Positions 741 to 18,660 of a DNA stretch of 64,000 nt are shown piece by piece. The translations under genes were made by a program, and so were the position numbers. The notes beneath the pieces are model-generated. The model did not search any database. It had not been told where the DNA came from and was given only the letters and a program-made list of their open reading frames with translations. The stretch lies in assembly GCF_000445065.1 (NCBI RefSeq), contig NZ_ATHO01000007.1:1-64000 (forward strand), given 5' to 3'. Every line of letters begins with the position of its first letter. Within the stretch, counting starts at the first letter, position 1. The DNA is from Sphingobium quisquiliarum P25 (GTDB taxonomy: Bacteria > Pseudomonadota > Alphaproteobacteria > Sphingomonadales > Sphingomonadaceae).

Positions 741-1643
741 ATGCAGACGCGGCTTGTCGAATATTTTCTGGCCCTTGAGCGCGAAGGCCATTTCGCGCGG
801 GCGGCGGCTTCCTGCAATGTGTCGCAGCCCAGCCTGTCGGCCGGGATCGCCTCGCTTGAGGAGCAACTCGGCAAGCGGCTGATCCGGCGCGACCGCAAAT
901 TCGCGGGGTTGACGGCGGAGGGGGAGGCGATCCTTCCCTGGGCGCGGCAGCTTGTCGCCACGGCCGAAGCGATGGAGCAGGCGGCGGAGACCGCGCGCGG
1001 GCCGCTAAGGGGCGAATTGCGCCTTGGCTCCATACCCGCCGCCATGCCGGTGATCGGCAGCCTGGCCGAAGCGATGCTCAGCCGCCATCCCGGCCTCAAC
1101 ATTTCCGTTAGGGCGCTGACTTCCCGCCAGATCGAGCGCGACCTTGCGGCTTTCGAGCTGGATGCGGGCATCACCTATCTTGATTTCGAGCCGCCCGCCC
1201 ATGCGCTTTCCGTGGCGCTCTATGCCGAACGGACCATGCTGGTGAGCGCAGCCGGGGGCATCCCCATTCCCGATCCGCTCGATTGGGCGGATCTGGCGCA
1301 ACTGCCGCTCTGCCTTCTGCACCAGGGGATGCAGAACCGCCGCATATTGGATTCGCGGCTGGCCGAACGCGGTCTTGCCCTGCGGCCGCGCGTCACCGCC
1401 GACAGCTATATCGCGCTGCTGGGGCTGGTGCAGCATGGCAGGCTATGTTCCATCATCCCGGACAGCCACGCCGCTCTGCTGGAAGGGCTGGCATGGGCAA
1501 GGATGGTGCCGCTGCCCGATATGGACGAAGGCAGCAGGGTGGGCGTGGTTGTGCCGGACAGCGCGCCGCTCGGCCCGTTGGCGCAAGCGGTGCTGAACGT
1601 CGCGCGCGAATTGAGACTGCCGCCCGGTTTCGACCTGACGTGA
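741..1643 (+). CDS. LysR family regulator, likely FdsR-type activator of the fds operon
   Basis: A 300-residue LysR-type regulator. An N-terminal HTH (residues about 1-60, with FARAAASCNVSQPSLSAGI) is followed by a periplasmic-binding-like effector domain (about 90-295). The formate dehydrogenase operon starts 96 bp downstream on the same strand. In Cupriavidus necator a LysR protein (FdsR) sits at the head of fds and responds to formate, so the same role is inferred. A perfect 19-bp palindrome begins at its stop codon. A half-site (CTATCA, 706-711) lies upstream of its own start and could serve autoregulation. Confidence 0.85.
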   Translation: MQTRLVEYFLALEREGHFARAAASCNVSQPSLSAGIASLEEQLGKRLIRRDRKFAGLTAEGEAILPWARQLVATAEAMEQAAETARGPLRGELRLGSIPAAMPVIGSLAEAMLSRHPGLNISVRALTSRQIERDLAAFELDAGITYLDFEPPAHALSVALYAERTMLVSAAGGIPIPDPLDWADLAQLPLCLLHQGMQNRRILDSRLAERGLALRPRVTADSYIALLGLVQHGRLCSIIPDSHAALLEGLAWARMVPLPDMDEGSRVGVVVPDSAPLGPLAQAVLNVARELRLPPGFDLT

Positions 1644-11251: not shown

Positions 11252-12310
11252 ATGGTTCGGAGCCGCCACAAGGGCAAAATGATCGCGGCCATGCTGCTTG
11301 CCGCACTTTGCACGTCCGCCAGTTCCGCTGCGGCGGATCAGGCCGCAAACGGCAAGGCCGGAGCCGGACTCAAGACGGGCAACCCTGAAGATCATCTTCC
11401 CGCGAATATCACGCGCCTCTCCTGGTTCGGGGAGCGCGCGTCCTGGTCGCCCGATGGCCGCAAGGTCGCCTTCATGTCCAAGAGTTTCGGGGACGCGTTC
11501 GAAATCGACGTGCGGACCGGCGAACTGCGCGTCCTCACCCCCTATCCGCATGCGGGCTATTTAAGGGCGCAATATCTGCCGAACGGCGACCTGTTCCTGA
11601 TCGGCGCGCGCAAGTTCGAGAATCCGATCAAGACGCGGTTCGAGGATCAGGAGATGTGGGTCCTCAGGAAGGACGGCAAGTCGAAGCCCATCCCGCTCGA
11701 CCACAAGATATTCGAAGGCGTCGCCATCTCGCGCCAGTCGATGAAGATCGCCTGGGCCAATTCGGCCCGCAACTATCCGGGCCAGATCGCGCCGAACGTT
11801 TCCATCGTCTATGTCGCCGACATCATCGAGGAAAATGGCGTGCCCAAACTCGCGAACAAGCGAGAGGTGCTGCGTTCCAACTCCGCGGACTGCGGCCTTG
11901 AGGTGCAGGATTTCCGCAATAACGACCAGGAACTGATCTACAGCTGCTATCGCCTGCCCTATGCGGATGTGATGGGCGTCGACCTGAAAAGCGGGAAAGT
12001 GACGACCTACCGGAAAATTCCGCAGGAATATAATGAAGCCGAAGGAATATTCCCTGACGGCCGCCATATCCTCGTGGAATCGAGCCGGGGCAAGGAAAAG
12101 CATTCCGACAAATATATCGATGTGTGGAAACTCAGGCTGGAGCCGGACGGGACCGACATGGTCCGGCTGACCCATTGGGGCGATTATGACGGTTACAAGG
12201 CGTCGAACCCCGTGGTCAGCCCGGATGGCAAGATGATCGTCTTCCAATCGGGGCGGCGCGATGACCTTCCCGGCGTGGGCCACGGATTGTTCCTGCTGCG
12301 GTTGCAATAG
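11252..12310 (+). CDS. Secreted TolB/PD40-type beta-propeller protein
   Basis: 352 residues with a signal peptide (MIAAMLLAALCTSASSAAA) and PD40-type blades, seen as RASWSPDGRKVAFMS, PNGDLFLIGARKF and PVVSPDGKMIVFQSG. Such propellers occur in TolB and in N-terminal domains of prolyl oligopeptidases; here no peptidase domain follows. The start is set by AGGAGGG at 11240-11246, six bases before the ATG. The reading frame is open far upstream, but that stretch is antisense to the glycosidase-like gene. Divergent from that gene across 135 bp, so the three genes 7777-12310 probably form one functional locus. Confidence 0.78.
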   Translation: MVRSRHKGKMIAAMLLAALCTSASSAAADQAANGKAGAGLKTGNPEDHLPANITRLSWFGERASWSPDGRKVAFMSKSFGDAFEIDVRTGELRVLTPYPHAGYLRAQYLPNGDLFLIGARKFENPIKTRFEDQEMWVLRKDGKSKPIPLDHKIFEGVAISRQSMKIAWANSARNYPGQIAPNVSIVYVADIIEENGVPKLANKREVLRSNSADCGLEVQDFRNNDQELIYSCYRLPYADVMGVDLKSGKVTTYRKIPQEYNEAEGIFPDGRHILVESSRGKEKHSDKYIDVWKLRLEPDGTDMVRLTHWGDYDGYKASNPVVSPDGKMIVFQSGRRDDLPGVGHGLFLLRLQ

Positions 12311-12375
12311 CAGGGATCGGGCTCATCGATCCGCTGGACCCGGTTTGACATAAGCGGCGTCCCGCGACATCATGG

Positions 12376-12547
12376 GGTGATGAAGGCTTGCCGCTGTCAT
12401 CACCGTTTTCGCCACCATGGGGGGCAGCTTCTCGCGGGCATATAGCCCCGGGTTCCGGTGCTTTTCGCCCTGAACTCGGGGCCGGACAGACTCGCGACAC
12501 GATGGCCTCCGCATGCCGGAGGCAGTTCATCCCGGAAAGCCAGACCC
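12376..12547 (+). promoter_or_regulatory. Structured repeat element, copy A: leader of rnk
   Basis: Three stems precede rnk: GGTGATG/CATCACC (12376-12404), a 10-bp stem CCCCGGGTTC/GAACTCGGGG (12446-12455 with 12472-12481, one G-U pair), and GCCTCCG/CGGAGGC (12505-12523). A conserved GCAGCTTCTCGCGGGCA block (12424-12440) sits before the main stem, and CCGGAAAGCCAG (12532-12543) ends 4 bp before the rnk ATG. The same parts recur in the same order and spacing at 14448-14615. A cis-acting RNA is the leading explanation. It is not a family I can name. Confidence 0.55.
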
Positions 12548-12961
12548 ATGACCAGCAAGAAGGCGAGCCGACGCCCGCCGATTCACATGATCGATTCAGA
12601 AGCCGATGCGATTACCGATCTGGCGATCGCCGCCGCCAAGCGCCTGCCGCAAGTTAGCGCCATGCTTCTGGAGGAGATAGGGCGCGCCACCATCCGCACC
12701 GCCGCCCAGATGCCGGACGATGTCGTGACCATGTATGCCACGGTGGATTTCATCGACGAGGGCGGCGAGAAGGAGCATAGCTATCAACTCGTCTATCCCG
12801 GCGACGCTGACATTTCGGCCGGGCGCATATCCATACTGACGCCGGTGGGCGCTGGCCTGATCGGGCTGAGGGAGGGGCAGTCCATTCTCTGGCCCGACCG
12901 GGACGGCCGCGAACGCGCGCTGAAAATCGTAAAGGTCGCGCGGGAGAGGGCGGCCAACTGA
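12548..12961 (+). CDS. rnk: Nucleoside diphosphate kinase regulator / GreA-like factor Rnk
   Basis: 137 residues. An N-terminal segment (RRPPIHMIDSEADAITDLA) is followed by a GreA/GreB C-terminal-like domain that includes SYQLVYPGDADISAGRISILTPVGAGLIGL. Rnk proteins bind RNA polymerase near the secondary channel and influence nucleoside diphosphate kinase levels. The start follows the conserved 3' motif of structured element A. A longer frame upstream would translate through that element and is rejected. Confidence 0.9.
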   Translation: MTSKKASRRPPIHMIDSEADAITDLAIAAAKRLPQVSAMLLEEIGRATIRTAAQMPDDVVTMYATVDFIDEGGEKEHSYQLVYPGDADISAGRISILTPVGAGLIGLREGQSILWPDRDGRERALKIVKVARERAAN

Positions 12962-13060
12962 CCGGCATGTCCCGGGATCAAGCAGGCGGTGGACAGCCCC
13001 GCTTGTTTGTCCCATTCTTCAAGGCTGCCCTGGCGGCATATTCTGATCCACGGAGTTCCC

Positions 13061-14356
13061 ATGTCCGAACAAAGGCCCAGACCCGAAACCCTTGCCGTTC
13101 ATGCCGGATGGCGGGCCGATCCGGCGACCGGATCGGTCGCGGTGCCGATCCATCAGACGACGTCCTACCAGTTCCGCGACGCGGAACATGCGGCGTCCCT
13201 CTTCGCGCTCCAGGAAATGGGCAACATCTATACCCGGATCATGAATCCGACGACGGATGTACTGGAAAAGCGCATCGCCGCGCTCGAAGGCGGAGCGGCG
13301 GCGCTGGCCGTCGCTTCAGGGCAGGCGGCTTCGGCCTATGCGGTGCAGAATCTGGCGCGGGCGGGGGACAATATCGTCAGTTCGACGGCGCTCTACGGCG
13401 GCACCTACAACCTCTTCGCCAACACGTTGAAGGATCAGGGGATCGAGGTGCGCTTCGTCGATCCTTCCGATCCTGAAAATTTCCGCCGTGCGACGGACGA
13501 CCGCACCCGCGCTTATTATGCGGAGACGCTGCCCAATCCGAAGCTGGAGGTGTTCCCGATCGCGGAGGTCGCCGCCATCGGCCGGGAAGCCGCCATTCCC
13601 CTGATCATGGACAATACGGCGGCCCCGCTGCTGTGCCGTCCGTTCGATCATGGCGCGGCGGTCGTCGTCTATTCCGCGACCAAATATCTGGGCGGGCATG
13701 GCACCTCCATCGGCGGATTGATCGTCGATGGCGGCAATTTCGACTGGGCGGCCGATCCTGTCCGGCAGCCGCTGCTCAACACGCCCGATCCCTCCTATCA
13801 CGGCGCGGTCTGGACGGAGGCGGCAAAGCCGCTTGGCCCGATTGCCTATATCTTGCGGGCGAGGGTGATCCTGCTGCGAGATCTGGGCGCGGCGATGTCG
13901 CCCTTCAACGCGTTCCAGCTGATCCAGGGGATTGAGACGGTGGCGCTGCGGATGGAACGGCACTGCGCCAATGCCGCCGGGGTGGCCAGCCATCTGGCGC
14001 AACACCCCGCGGTCACGAGGGTCATTCACCCGTCGCAGCAGGATGGCGAAGCCAGGACCCTGGCGGACCGATACCTGACCGGCGGGCATGGCGGGCTTGT
14101 CGGCTTCGAACTTGCAGGCGGGATAGAGGCCGGGCGGCGCTTCATCAATGCGTTGCAGCTATTCTACCATGTCGCCAATATCGGCGATGCGCGCAGTCTG
14201 GCGATCCATCCTTCCTCCACGACCCATTCGCAGTTGAACGAAGCGGAGCAGCGCGCGTCGGGCGTGTCGCCCGGCTATGTCCGCCTGTCCATCGGCATAG
14301 AGCATATCAGCGACATATTGGCCGATATCGACCAGGCGCTGGCGGCGGCGCACTGA
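13061..14356 (+). CDS. metY: O-acetylhomoserine (thiol)-lyase / aminocarboxypropyltransferase
   Basis: 431-residue PLP enzyme of the Cys/Met metabolism family. The probable PLP lysine is K208 in YSATKYLGGHG. The tyrosine of the neighbouring-subunit phosphate contact lies in GNIYTRIMNPT, and SSTTHSQL near the C-terminus is typical. It makes homocysteine from O-acetylhomoserine and sulfide. The start MSEQRPRPETLAVHAG fits family N-termini; a 24-codon upstream extension has no support. No SAM-type riboswitch was recognised in the 99-bp gap after rnk. Confidence 0.88.
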   Translation: MSEQRPRPETLAVHAGWRADPATGSVAVPIHQTTSYQFRDAEHAASLFALQEMGNIYTRIMNPTTDVLEKRIAALEGGAAALAVASGQAASAYAVQNLARAGDNIVSSTALYGGTYNLFANTLKDQGIEVRFVDPSDPENFRRATDDRTRAYYAETLPNPKLEVFPIAEVAAIGREAAIPLIMDNTAAPLLCRPFDHGAAVVVYSATKYLGGHGTSIGGLIVDGGNFDWAADPVRQPLLNTPDPSYHGAVWTEAAKPLGPIAYILRARVILLRDLGAAMSPFNAFQLIQGIETVALRMERHCANAAGVASHLAQHPAVTRVIHPSQQDGEARTLADRYLTGGHGGLVGFELAGGIEAGRRFINALQLFYHVANIGDARSLAIHPSSTTHSQLNEAEQRASGVSPGYVRLSIGIEHISDILADIDQALAAAH

Positions 14357-14447
14357 TCGGGCAGGGGGAATTTTCCGATCGCTGACAGGGGGGAGGCCCC
14401 CGGCCGCCGCGCGTTTGACTCCGGCGGGCGGGCTGTGCCATGGCGCT

Positions 14448-14615
14448 CATGATGCATTCACGCAGTGATCATGTGCGCTTCCGCTATCAAGGGGGACAGC
14501 TTCTCGCGGGCAACTAGCCCCGGGTTGCGGCGCTTCATGCCCCGGACCCGGGGTAGATCGAAAGTCTGCGGCGCGCCGTGCACGGGCGTGCTCCTTCCTT
14601 CCGAAAGCCAGCGCG
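14448..14615 (+). promoter_or_regulatory. Structured repeat element, copy B: upstream of a 25-codon ORF and gdhA
   Basis: Second copy of the element found before rnk. It has a 5' stem CATGAT/ATCATG (14448-14473), the conserved ACAGCTTCTCGCGGGCA block (14496-14512), the main stem CCCCGGGT/ACCCGGGG (14518-14525 with 14546-14553), a GC-rich third stem (about 14570-14591) and the 3' motif CCGAAAGCCAG (14601-14611). The main stem-loop is 36 nt in both copies. One position is G-C here and G-U in copy A, so pairing is kept despite sequence change. An ATG follows 4 bp after the 3' motif in both. This element fills most of the 396-bp gap between metY and gdhA; the part 14357-14447 holds only a short G/C hairpin (14388-14401). 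Confidence 0.55.
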
Positions 14616-16102
<1,487 letters not shown>

Positions 16103-16159: not shown

Positions 16160-16603
16160 CTAACCCGAAGCCACGGCAGCAGGCATGGGAAACAATGAGA
16201 AGCCATCCGGGGTCCGTTGCCTGGCCATGATGTCGGCCAGCGTATAGCCGTCCAGCACGCTCAAAAAGGCGGAGACCGCTTCCCTGAGCACGGCCGTCAT
16301 CCCGCAGGCGGGCGCGATGACGCAGCTGCCGCAATCGACCAGGTCGAACCCCTCCTCCGTATAGCGGACGAGCACGCCCACATTGATGTCCTCCGGCGCT
16401 TTCCCCAGCCGGATGCCGCCCCCGCGCCCCCGCACGCTTTCGATATAGCCCGCGCGGGCGAGGCCGTTCACCACCTTCATCAGGTGATTTTGGGATATGC
16501 CATAGGCTTGCGCCACCTCCGCGATGGAGGACAGGCGGCCGCTGTTCGCGCCGAGGTAGAGCAGCACGCGCATGGAATAATCCGTATACAGCGTCAGCTT
16601 CAT
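16160..16603 (-). CDS. nsrR: NO-sensing Rrf2 family repressor NsrR
   Basis: 147 residues. The winged HTH (about 20-65, SIAEVAQAYGISQNHLMKVVNGL) is followed by the Fe-S cluster cysteines C91, C94 and C100 in DCGSCVIAPACGM. This C-x2-C-x5-C pattern is that of NsrR. Nitrosylation of the cluster releases DNA. The divergent operon encodes a truncated haemoglobin, a DUF1971 (YeaR-like) protein and flavohaemoglobin, which are classical NsrR targets. Two palindromes lie in the shared promoter. Confidence 0.9.
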   Translation of the reverse strand: MKLTLYTDYSMRVLLYLGANSGRLSSIAEVAQAYGISQNHLMKVVNGLARAGYIESVRGRGGGIRLGKAPEDINVGVLVRYTEEGFDLVDCGSCVIAPACGMTAVLREAVSAFLSVLDGYTLADIMARQRTPDGFSLFPMPAAVASG

Positions 16604-16640
16604 TGGGCGGCTCCGGCGATCCTTGAAAATGGCATCCGAT

Positions 16641-16665
16641 AAATATGCAATTCTGTTGCATGTTT
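16641..16665. promoter_or_regulatory. Candidate NsrR operator 1
   Basis: Inverted repeat centred on ATGCAA-TTCTG-TTGCAT (16645-16661), flanked by AAA and TTT so that 9 of 10 positions in each arm are symmetric. AT-rich, with ATGCA/TGCAT half-sites like those of the NsrR consensus. It lies 37 bp upstream of the nsrR start and 50 bp before the haemoglobin gene. Confidence 0.6.
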
Positions 16666-16681
16666 CAAATCCGCCTTATAG

Positions 16682-16698
16682 ATGTATTTTCAATGCAT
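16682..16698. promoter_or_regulatory. Candidate NsrR operator 2
   Basis: ATGTATT-TTC-AATGCAT, an imperfect palindrome one base from symmetry. It resembles the AAGATGYATTT half-site used by NsrR in enterobacteria. Its centre is 37 bp from operator 1 and 16 bp ahead of the GTG start of the haemoglobin gene, a position suited to repression. Confidence 0.6.
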
Positions 16699-16714
16699 GA
16701 TTGGAGCTTGAGTC

Positions 16715-17140
16715 GTGAATGGCGTCTCGCACATCAGGGAATCGGATCTGGGGCCGCTCGTGGACGCCTTCTACGCCCGCGTCCGGGGCGACGCGGCGCT
16801 CGGTCCCATATTCAACGACGCCATTCATGACTGGCCGGACCATCTGAAGAAGCTGACCGCCTTCTGGTCGTCGGTGATGCTGGCGAGCGGGCGCTACAAG
16901 GGCCAGCCGGTCGCCGCGCACATGAAGCACAAGGCGCGGATCACGCCGGAACTGTTCGACCGCTGGCTGCTCCTGTGGAAGGAAACCACGGATGATCTGA
17001 TGACGCCCAAAGCCGCGGCAGCGCTTCAGGCCAAGGCGGCGCAGATCGCTGAAAGCCTTCAACTCGCCATGTTCTTCCGCCTGCCTTCGGGCGCGCCGCC
17101 TTTCCCTGTCCGCAAGGCGGAGGGCGCGCATCATGGCTGA
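16715..17140 (+). CDS. Group III truncated haemoglobin
   Basis: 141 residues of 2-on-2 globin type. Recognisable segments are LVDAFYARVRGDAALGPIF (A/B helices), WPDHLKKLTAFWSSVML, and HMKHKARITPELFDRWLLLW, whose His is the likely proximal haem ligand. The start is GTG, forced by an in-frame TGA at 16709-16711, with GGAG a few bases upstream. First gene of an NsrR-type operon; the last 8 bp overlap the next gene. Probable role: NO or peroxynitrite detoxification near the respiratory chain. Confidence 0.88.
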   Translation: MNGVSHIRESDLGPLVDAFYARVRGDAALGPIFNDAIHDWPDHLKKLTAFWSSVMLASGRYKGQPVAAHMKHKARITPELFDRWLLLWKETTDDLMTPKAAAALQAKAAQIAESLQLAMFFRLPSGAPPFPVRKAEGAHHG

Positions 17141-17408
17141 TGTCCTGCCCTACCGCTCGACGCCTGTGTTCGACGAAAGCTCGCTGCCCGCGGCGTTGCG
17201 CGCCCGGCACAGTACCAAGGCTGGCGTCTGGGGCGTGATCAAGGTTCTGGAGGGGCAGCTCCGGCTCAGCTACCTCGAACCGCCATCTGAATCGCTGCTG
17301 ACCCCGCAGCAGCCCGGCCTCGTGGAGCCCCAGCAACCCCATTTCGTGACCCCCATCGGGGCCATGAAGATGCAGGTCGATTTCTACGACCAGAATCCTT
17401 TCCCCTGA
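17133..17408 (+). CDS. DUF1971 (YeaR/TehB N-domain-like) cupin protein
   Basis: 91 residues. PYRSTPVFDESSLPAALR starts a small cupin-like fold, and HFVTPIGAMKMQVDFYDQNP closes it, as in E. coli YeaR and the tellurite-resistance TehB N-domain. YeaR is NO/NsrR-regulated in E. coli, which matches the operon here. The biochemical role is unknown. It overlaps the haemoglobin gene by 8 bp and precedes hmp by 40 bp. Confidence 0.82.
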   Translation: MADVLPYRSTPVFDESSLPAALRARHSTKAGVWGVIKVLEGQLRLSYLEPPSESLLTPQQPGLVEPQQPHFVTPIGAMKMQVDFYDQNPFP

Positions 17409-17448
17409 TTTCCAAGTTCCTGACGCATTTACAGTAGAGGAGATATCG

Positions 17449-18660
17449 ATGTCGCAACCCCTCAGCGAGCAGACCGTCGCGCTCGTCAAGGCCACAGTCC
17501 CGGCGCTGGAGGCCCACGGCCTCGACATCGTCCGTGAAATGTATTCGCGAATGTTTCAGGACCCTGAAATCCGCGACCTTTTCAACCAGTCGCATCATGG
17601 GGATGCCGGGTCCCAGCCGCGCGCGCTGACCGGGGCCATCCTCGCCTATGCCAGCAATATCGACAATCTGGGCGCGCTCGCCCCCGCTGTCGAGCGGATC
17701 GCGCAGAAGCATGTGGGCTTGCAGATCCTGCCCGAACATTATCCCCATGTGGCCAATGCGCTGCTCGGCGCGATCAAGGCGGTGCTGGGCGACGCCGCGA
17801 CCGACGAAATCCTCGCCGCCTGGGGTGAGGCCTACTGGTTCCTCGCCAACATCCTGATCGCCCGTGAACAGCGCATCTATACTGAACAGAAGGACGCGGA
17901 CGGCGGCTGGAACGGCTGGCGCGACTTCCGTGTGGAAGACGTCATCCGGGAAAGCAGCGTCATCAACTCCTTCATCCTTCGTCCGGCCGATGGTGGCCCG
18001 GTCATGGATCACAAGGCGGGACAATATCTGACCTTCTGGCTGCAAATTCCGGGGCATCCCCCCATCAAGCGTAACTATTCCATCTCGGCCGCCCCGAACG
18101 GCCAGACCTACCGCATCTCCGTGAAGCGTGAACCCCATGGGCTGGCGTCCGGCTGGCTTCATGAGGAAGTCAGGCCGGGAACCATCCTGAAAGTGGCCGC
18201 GCCCGCAGGCGAATTCTTCCTGGCGGATCATGTCGAGCGGCCCGTGGTGCTGCTGTCGGGCGGGGTCGGCCTGACGCCCATGGTGGCGATGCTCGAAGCG
18301 CTGGCGGAAAGCGGCGCGCTGGTGCCGGTGCATTATGTCCACGGCACGCACAATCGCGAAACCCATGCGATGCGCGATCATGTCCGGGCCGTCGCGGCGA
18401 GGGGCAAGGCGATCAAGGTGACGGACTTCCATCAAACCCCGCTCGCCGATGAGGTGGAAGGCCGCGACTATGACGCCGCCGGGATCATCACGGACGAATG
18501 GCTGGTCGCGAACACGCCGGTGGCGGAGGCCGACTATTATATCTGCGGCCCGCGCCCCTTCCTGCGCCATGCGGTATCGACTCTATCGCTGGCCGGGGTG
18601 CCTTCGGCCCGCATCCACTATGAGTTCTTCGGCCCGGCCGACGAACTTCTCGCCGCCTGA
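17449..18660 (+). CDS. hmp: NO-inducible flavohaemoprotein (nitric oxide dioxygenase)
   Basis: 403 residues, full length for Hmp. N-terminal globin (about 1-140; AQKHVGLQILPEHYPHVANALL contains the proximal His), then an FAD domain (about 150-260; KRNYSISAAP is the flavin-binding RxYS motif) and an NAD(P)H domain (VVLLSGGVGLTPMVAML, then YYICGPRPFLRH). It converts NO to nitrate with O2 and NADH. Third gene of the NsrR operon, preceded by GAGGAGAT. Confidence 0.95.
   Translation: MSQPLSEQTVALVKATVPALEAHGLDIVREMYSRMFQDPEIRDLFNQSHHGDAGSQPRALTGAILAYASNIDNLGALAPAVERIAQKHVGLQILPEHYPHVANALLGAIKAVLGDAATDEILAAWGEAYWFLANILIAREQRIYTEQKDADGGWNGWRDFRVEDVIRESSVINSFILRPADGGPVMDHKAGQYLTFWLQIPGHPPIKRNYSISAAPNGQTYRISVKREPHGLASGWLHEEVRPGTILKVAAPAGEFFLADHVERPVVLLSGGVGLTPMVAMLEALAESGALVPVHYVHGTHNRETHAMRDHVRAVAARGKAIKVTDFHQTPLADEVEGRDYDAAGIITDEWLVANTPVAEADYYICGPRPFLRHAVSTLSLAGVPSARIHYEFFGPADELLAA

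Follow-up and report, generated by a model that had tools for sequence, protein, structure and literature searches.

Among the closest described counterparts of the element treated here is the enterobacterial rnk_leader (Rfam RF01771), which in E. coli lies directly upstream of rnk and in which a stem is followed by a T-rich tract (by eye). A short leader that occurs in two copies, A and B, in a 64,000-nucleotide (nt) stretch of Sphingobium quisquiliarum P25 (contig NZ_ATHO01000007.1, positions 1–64,000; the whole stretch is called the window) resembles it as a cis leader with a hairpin before a homologous rnk, the Rnk of the window being 34% identical to that of E. coli over 122 aa. The Sphingobium leader differs in that it lacks the U-tract and has a selected peptide with a promoter fused to its start codon. 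RF01771 (gathering cut-off 50 bits) has no match in the window, in positions 12300–14800 at E ≤ 10 or in the leader loci of 8 relatives, whereas the E. coli control scores 124.9. No other Rfam family matches at gathering in the window or in those 8 loci, as the first-pass annotation of this DNA, which knew of no named family, had suggested; at E ≤ 10, positions 12300–14800 give only chance-like matches far below the cut-offs. In E. coli K-12 (L329, 2530–2580, reverse strand), a short GTG-started frame, MSNSQYHHVS-stop, ends directly before the terminator-like stem (by eye) and is possibly a leader peptide too.

trpL, hisL and ilvL are leader-peptide attenuators, and TnaC and SecM are regulatory nascent-chain arrest peptides. 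The uORFC-8-2 of cysS in Rhodobacterales (uORF, upstream open reading frame) is also of the leader-peptide attenuator type (PMC8632094). With these attenuators the Sphingobium leader shares the order of short ORF, hairpin and regulated gene, but it has no tandem regulatory codons, its motif is mixed and rnk is not a biosynthetic gene. With arrest peptides, including those of the RAPP type (PMC12992588), it shares selection in the C-terminal half, beside stop and structure; its consensus contains no RAPP, its target is rnk rather than a protein-localization gene, and arrest here is putative. The alphaproteobacterial odc1 leader (uORF-25-1) likewise combines a short conserved peptide with an RNA hairpin and includes a Sphingomonas example, but there an 11-aa uORF lies just before the main start and the structure is mostly upstream (PMC8632094), whereas in the present leader the uORF is apparently leaderless and the hairpin lies downstream of it. 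In the survey of Naville and Gautheret (2010; PMC2965389), greA/rnk takes seventh place among the gene families for which attenuators are predicted, and in other groups such attenuators are a frequent prediction for these genes. A description of the present leader was not found in a literature search limited to open-licence PMC papers, which does not imply its absence from print.

The Short Reading Frame and Its Linkage to rnk

Both copies are probably cis-acting leader-peptide regulators of rnk, in which ribosome pausing beside a hairpin would alter rnk output. Sequence comparison supports well the arrangement itself, a putative leaderless, selected leader peptide with an abutting hairpin, tied to rnk; the mechanism, in which a pausing ribosome would control the hairpin, is likely. 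In copy A the parts are as follows.

12345–12350, forward strand: −35 box TTGACA, 35 nt before the uORF ATG
12368–12373, forward strand: −10 box CATCAT, with its end 6 nt ahead of the uORF ATG (peaks of information at −12, −11 and −7)
12380–12445, forward strand: uORF of 21 codons, MKACRCHHRFRHHGGQLLAGI followed by a stop, leaderless as judged from promoter spacing
12445–12482, forward strand: main hairpin GCCCCGGGTTC...GAACTCGGGGC, which starts on the G of the TAG stop (covariation)
12505–12523, forward strand: second hairpin GCCTCCGCATGCCGGAGGC, not conserved in sequence (sequence, fold, and folding tendency in relatives)
12534–12539, forward strand: GGAAAG, the likely Shine-Dalgarno sequence of rnk (purine-rich peak at −13 to −9 in 79 nonredundant relatives)
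12548–12961, forward strand: rnk, nucleoside diphosphate kinase regulator family, 137 aa (NF004396, 128.1 bits, cut-off 109), with the GreA_GreB C-terminal domain PF01272

A covariance model of the leader (R1) was run on 94 Sphingobium genomes, and the Rnk family was searched independently on the same 94. A leader lies upstream on the same strand in 60 of the 61 Rnk matches, 58–158 nt away (from the end of the leader-model match to the start of the Rnk match); the lone exception is a partial Rnk match (model positions 66–130, 76 bits, below the family cut-off). Conversely, 60 of the 67 leaders found at E ≤ 3e-8 precede Rnk, so that the leader is linked to one downstream gene on one strand. Leader and Rnk are both present in 51 genomes, both absent from 43 and discordant in none. 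The structured RNA element before rnk that the first-pass annotation had described is borne out as a cis-acting leader, and the checks that it had called for, on covarying pairs and on placement, gave a covarying main hairpin and a consistent place before rnk. Relatives are cited by locus (L###) and genome (G###) labels. Among the seven leaders not before Rnk, four precede gdhA (copy B of the window, G007, G105 and G097), G091 and G009 have a related leader before a small gene, and G116 has one of the RAGRLIAG type. Of the weaker matches in the genus, seven equal 34-bit R1 matches in G030 were read as chance matches in a repeated gene, judging from L120 and L121, where the frame stops at codon 2 and no Rnk follows (surroundings viewed for L121). 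Nine matches of 21–25 bits (L122–L127, L129, L131 and L132) have no Rnk, L126 being a RAGRLITGI leader.

The most conserved part of the leader, the block CAGCTTCTCGCGGGCA, is protein-coding and spans uORF codons 16–20 plus the opening base of codon 21. When the two window copies are aligned with 19 sequences from relatives (21 in all), the block reads QLLAG-x-stop in most, and in 20 of them its CAG is preceded by an ATG at a distance of 45 nt; the distance of 48 nt in L033 represents a whole-codon insertion. Selection on the uORF as protein is indicated by a ratio of nonsynonymous to synonymous change (pN/pS) of 0.42 over codons 9–20, against 1.51 and 1.74 in the other two frames. Over codons 2–8 the ratio is 0.92, so the C-terminal half, with consensus RFRHHGGQLLAGx, is conserved and the N-terminal half is free, as in arrest peptides. 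These ratios were obtained from 21-codon uORFs of at least 40 bits (77 distinct, 54 without near-duplicates), a set whose length was fixed by selection. At Gly codon 15 the third base is near random (1.98 bits, all four bases), while hardly any variation occurs at the first two. TAG serves as the stop in 52 of the 54, compared with 9 of the 34 long ORFs of the window (TGA 22, TAA 3).

The frame is intact in 125 of the 126 matches of at least 40 bits, 118 by script and seven by eye (six with a substitution in the motif and L162 with another in-frame ATG), and exactly 21 codons long in 78 of the 118. In the remaining match, L048 (G008), the stop TAG has become TGG and the uORF is lengthened to 44 codons, with Rnk still downstream. 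The Leu codons 17 and 18 are mostly CTT and CTC, although in the long ORFs of the window Leu is most often encoded by CTG; this codon choice may reflect one tRNA species or a nucleotide-level constraint.

Among 95 nonredundant upstream sequences, TTGAC begins at −36 or −35 of the uORF ATG in 87, information in the −10 region peaks at −12, −11 and −7, and no purine-rich run occurs at Shine-Dalgarno distance before the uORF. With the ordinary sigma-70 spacing of these elements, +1 falls on or beside the A of the ATG, as in leaderless mRNAs, so the message apparently starts at the uORF ATG. Leaderless initiation is plausible physiology, since Caulobacter has 375 leaderless mRNAs that are translated about as well as others (PMC4117421).

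Hairpins, Spacing and Competing Explanations

The main hairpin, CCCCGGG...CCCGGGG, abuts the TAG stop, and its stem takes in the final base of that codon. Of 73 nonredundant hairpins, 68 were used; L101, L109, L113, L165 and L168 were set aside for an ill-fitting anchor or hairpin. The two arms pair at 586 of 612 positions when both come from one sequence, compared with 531.1 ± 4.3 when arms are swapped between sequences. If only the outer 4 bp are used to set the register (n = 67), pairing is seen at 301 of 335 positions of the inner five, compared with 260.1 ± 4.1. Covariation across the 21 aligned sequences scores 0.212, compared with 0.158 ± 0.014 for shuffled versions and at most 0.097 for slid ones. 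The second hairpin, near rnk, folds a little more stably than shuffled sequence, with a mean z score of −1.04 and 46 of 83 below −1, compared with −0.23 and 17 of 83 for same-length pieces of rnk genes; this sample consists of 105 of the 118 leaders, 83 of them nonredundant, those without a close Rnk or with a weak stem having been left out.

These results modify the structural picture drawn by the first-pass annotation. Its shared block, CCCCGGGT hairpin, GAAAGCCAG and ATG 4 nt further are all present in the sequence, and the main-stem pair described as G-U in copy A and G-C in copy B is indeed so (pair 75/105 of A2). Its shared 5′ stem has to be rejected: the first 31 columns of the 21-sequence consensus, an alignment that begins at the uORF ATG and leaves the first 4 nt of the claimed stem outside, contain no pair, and the uORF start that occupies this region varies freely. 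The third stem, said to stay paired in both copies, retains only the mild folding tendency given above. The selection on RNA structure that the annotation had suggested holds for the main hairpin, which covaries, but the most conserved part of the leader is the short ORF selected as protein.

Beyond the genus, R1 at E ≤ 1e-3 finds matches in 76 of 397 genomes of the family and 33 of 96 genera; the 76 include five weak-only genomes (E 3.8e-4 to 7.6e-4), among which L180–L182 show no leader and L183 and L184 are partial. At E ≤ 1e-4, 18 of 246 genomes in the order sample match, all in the family of the window, as do 6 of 289 in the class sample, four in other families, where L209 and L210 precede Rnk.

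Leaders can also be sought from the Rnk side. A strict test called for a promoter-like −35, an ORF of 14–40 codons and a stem of at least 7 bp beginning 5–6 nt after a Gly codon; this test and a loose one require ATG, so that GTG-started leaders fail. Class loci above the Rnk family cut-off numbered 27 (25 outside the family of the window; a second G672 match was left out). The strict test was passed by 17 of the 27 and the loose test by 21; the 628 control windows gave 7 strict and 25 loose passes, and the 540 shuffles gave 1 and 10. In a second set, not viewed beforehand, which comprised the best 80 genome loci among the matches listed and was found by Rnk protein alone, 64 passed strictly and 74 loosely. 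Among 1,990 control windows, 8 passed strictly and 53 loosely; the controls come from all 84 loci, that is, these 80 and four viral ones (1 strict and 1 loose pass). Some of the 80 are of the same species as genomes in earlier sets, and the loose match of L256 was judged spurious. Strict passes among the best 80 include Novosphingobium, Sphingopyxis, Methylobacterium, Caulobacter, and metagenome-assembled genomes (MAGs) labelled Caulobacteraceae and Phenylobacterium; Plastoroseomonas and a Hyphomicrobium MAG pass loosely. The identity of the peptides of Methylobacterium DB0501 and a Brevundimonas MAG is a warning of mixed bins.

When the distance from Gly to stem was left free (0–15 nt), 66 of the best 80 loci gave a stem of at least 7 bp, 63 of them at 5 or 6 nt (5 nt in 51, 6 in 12, 7 in 2 and 11 in 1; where several Gly codons qualified, the script favoured one within the motif). 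The spacing is kept even where the stop lies 5–19 codons further, inside the hairpin region (GQLLAG|HPPRT-stop; DLAAG|FQPRVCAARQPSPGTSLSH followed by a stop), which suggests that the place of the ribosome at the motif, not at the stop, is what matters.

The following course of events is proposed. Transcription would start at the A of the ATG, and a ribosome would begin the 21-codon ORF without a Shine-Dalgarno sequence. The N-terminal half of the peptide is free to vary, and RFRHHGGQLLAGx is the selected part. With the Gly of the motif being decoded, the ribosome would stand 5–6 nt from the base of the GC-rich hairpin between uORF and rnk. If it lingered there, through the nascent peptide, slow codons or slow termination at UAG, it would cover the 5′ arm and the hairpin would stay open; if it left or never started, the hairpin would close, and the amount or translation of rnk mRNA would change. 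That an open hairpin raises rnk is a guess.

Several points weigh against regulation of rnk by a leader peptide. Translation of the uORF is deduced from selection and the start site from spacing. For the 21 aligned sequences, 75 of 500 shuffles reach the observed number of pairs with both sides changed (3) and 22 reach that of further pair types, although the other measures are not reached; both the shuffle and the swap controls ignore relatedness. Codons 17–20 are conserved beyond their amino acids (CTT/CTC, GCG, GGC), which places part of the block under a nucleic-acid constraint as well. The class loci had been partly viewed before the test was fixed, and 6 of the 27 fail even the loose test; five of these six lie behind another GreA-like match on the same strand, and L231 is left without explanation. 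The loose test is failed as well by 6 of the 80 Rnk-anchored genome loci, and the motif drifts in several other families (HPIAE, LPIAD). The L211 leader is intact, but its contig ends 151 nt on. An intact leader in L212 (G672, 1501–1613, forward strand; MLRFAVFCRALCRSGNLIAGL followed by a stop) has no Rnk behind it; the S-adenosylmethionine decarboxylase-like ORF (by eye) that follows it likewise follows Rnk in L210, and L212 may therefore be another orphan leader. Finally, no U-tract follows the main hairpin: the next 8 nt contain 1.63 T on average in the 83 nonredundant leaders, and four T in only 4 of them.

That last point also bears on a classical attenuator like the enterobacterial rnk leader, in which the hairpin would be an intrinsic terminator and translation of the uORF would decide termination. 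The rank of greA/rnk among families with predicted attenuators and the position of the E. coli leader directly upstream of rnk speak for such a device, and in some other alphaproteobacteria a T-rich stretch does follow the stem (e.g., gcgttttc in L233). Sphingobium-type leaders, however, lack the hairpin-then-U-tract of RF01771 as well as any match to that family, and the consensus RFRHHGGQLLAGx has no run of codons for one regulatory amino acid (at most two alike in a row). Intrinsic termination as a general explanation is not supported for Sphingobium-type leaders, and the attenuator is unlikely.

Less probable still is a purely structured RNA before rnk, a riboswitch or protein-binding site with the ORF as a by-product. 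The covarying hairpin and the nucleotide-level constraint on codons 17–20 would fit it, as would the stable folding of the leader as a whole (z −2.64 and −2.52) and a consensus fold that pairs parts of the uORF (columns 32–36 with 58–62, and 44–47 with 54–57). It is contradicted by third positions that vary at codons 9 and 15 while first and second positions do not, by pN/pS above 1.5 in the other frames and by the preserved ORF length, which leave this reading improbable.

A small trans-acting protein, placed before rnk by mere co-expression, would account for the conserved C-terminus, and leader peptides can act in trans, as described for peTrpL (PMC7298713); yet the N-terminal half is unselected, the motif lies mostly 5–6 nt from the hairpin and a cis link would be unneeded, so that this origin is very doubtful. 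Chance placement of a dispersed palindromic repeat or mobile element before two genes, the alternative named in the first-pass annotation and suggested by two hairpin-bearing copies in one window, is hardly credible and is refuted by same-strand linkage close upstream of rnk (60 of 67 leaders), by the absence of matches at E ≤ 3e-8 from the 43 rnk-less genomes, by the lack of copies scattered in both orientations and by the lack of a third strong copy in its own genome.

Copy B, Orphan Leaders and Related Peptides

The two copies lie where the first-pass annotation had placed them (12376–12547 and 14448–14615). Over a 104-nt ungapped alignment (A, 12378–12481; B, 14450–14553) they are 73% identical; copy B is found from copy A in its own genome at E 9.4e-13 and homologues in relatives reach E 1.1e-33, so the similarity is not due to chance. 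The features at and around copy B are as follows.

13061–14356: O-acetylhomoserine sulfhydrylase-like gene, directly before copy B
14415–14420, forward strand: −35 box TTGACT, 37 nt before ATG 14452 and 34 nt before the in-frame ATG 14449
14452–14517, forward strand: uORF of 21 codons, MHSRSDHVRFRYQGGQLLAGN followed by a stop, with a second in-frame ATG at 14449
14517–14554, forward strand: main hairpin GCCCCGGGTT...GGACCCGGGGT
14616–14629, forward strand: remnant of a lost second rnk, not quite five codons (blastn against rnk-gdhA loci)
14753–16102, forward strand: gdhA, NADP-specific glutamate dehydrogenase, the first intact gene behind copy B (NF006929, 762.9 bits, cut-off 536)

On comparison with relatives, copy B is the leader of a second, paralogous rnk that has lost its coding sequence at this locus. 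In L026, L028, L029, L038, L040 and L041 the order is leader, second rnk, gdhA, and by blastn a 63-nt match of the window to L053 (82.5%) runs across the second hairpin into the opening codons of rnk and ends at 14629. Of the element described as standing before rnk and gdhA, the rnk part therefore holds, and there is no independent gdhA element. Leaders directly before gdhA are also found in G007, G105 and G097 and in G255 of another genus (L054, L064, L067 and L077); in G007 a decayed rnk start is readable by eye. The uORF is intact in all five gdhA-adjoining leaders (window 14415–14760 and these four loci). Behind gdhA, positions 16160–18660 contain an Rrf2-type regulator (reverse strand), a small globin-like ORF and a flavohaemoglobin-like ORF (named by eye), which look like a nitric-oxide response cluster.

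Related leaders stand before other genes. Those of the type SIRAQRAGRLIAGI followed by a stop precede an S4-domain pseudouridine synthase in three genomes, where 19-codon uORFs end in RAGRLIAGI or RAGRLITGI before the stop, with a hairpin at the stop.

6484–6582 of L119, reverse strand: leader of this type
1504–1598 of L126, reverse strand: leader of this type
1479–1571 of L179, reverse strand: leader of this type

The L119 synthase matches PF00849, PF01479 and TIGR00093, and the proteins of L126 and L179 are alike by eye. A model of the RAGRLIAG type (R2) has three strong matches in the 94 genomes, two of them before the synthase; the third, L188, has a broken frame and a lost stop (by eye), and weaker R2 matches include rnk leaders and ordinary coding sequence. 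R1 and R2 recognise each other weakly (R1 on G116, E 1.8e-8; R2 on rnk leaders, E ≥ 6.8e-5). A further type, RFRDHAGQLAARx-stop, precedes proteins of 89–101 aa (L116, L153 and L158), those of L153 and L158 having no Pfam or NCBIfam match. MYAP..RFRHHAGQLAARx-stop leaders occur in L115–L117, L153 and L158, several per locus in L115–L117, some before Rnk and some before 89–101-aa proteins with a hydrophobic C-terminus.

The L101 leader peptide is the same as that of L252 (S. jiangsuense, NZ_JACIDT010000003.1). An IMG/VR contig, L325, has rnk and a leader peptide identical to that of L252; it is more likely bacterial than viral DNA.

A Possible Link Between Ribosome State and rnk in Alphaproteobacteria

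To our knowledge, the physiological role of rnk, a GreA-like gene, is poorly understood. None of the 94 Sphingobium genomes has leader or rnk alone, which suggests that translation of a very short peptide controls how much rnk is expressed, and the leader turns this obscure gene into a testable question: what is it that a ribosome senses at this point? The element also offers a leaderless reporter that is ready for use. Tentatively, the leaders may form an alphaproteobacterial family of leaderless regulatory peptides, with the core (R/H)-(G/A/S)-G-(Q/R/N)-L-x-A-G, that acts as a sensor of ribosome state and adjusts the amount of Rnk, which is related to the Gre factors that bind RNA polymerase, peptides of the same type standing before the S4-domain rRNA pseudouridine synthase and the small membrane-like protein. 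The similar peptide before the pseudouridine synthase suggests a whole class of regulatory peptides, left unannotated because the ORFs are mostly of 16–25 codons and without a Shine-Dalgarno sequence. If such a sensor family exists, the state of the ribosome would be coupled to genes for transcription and for ribosome modification.

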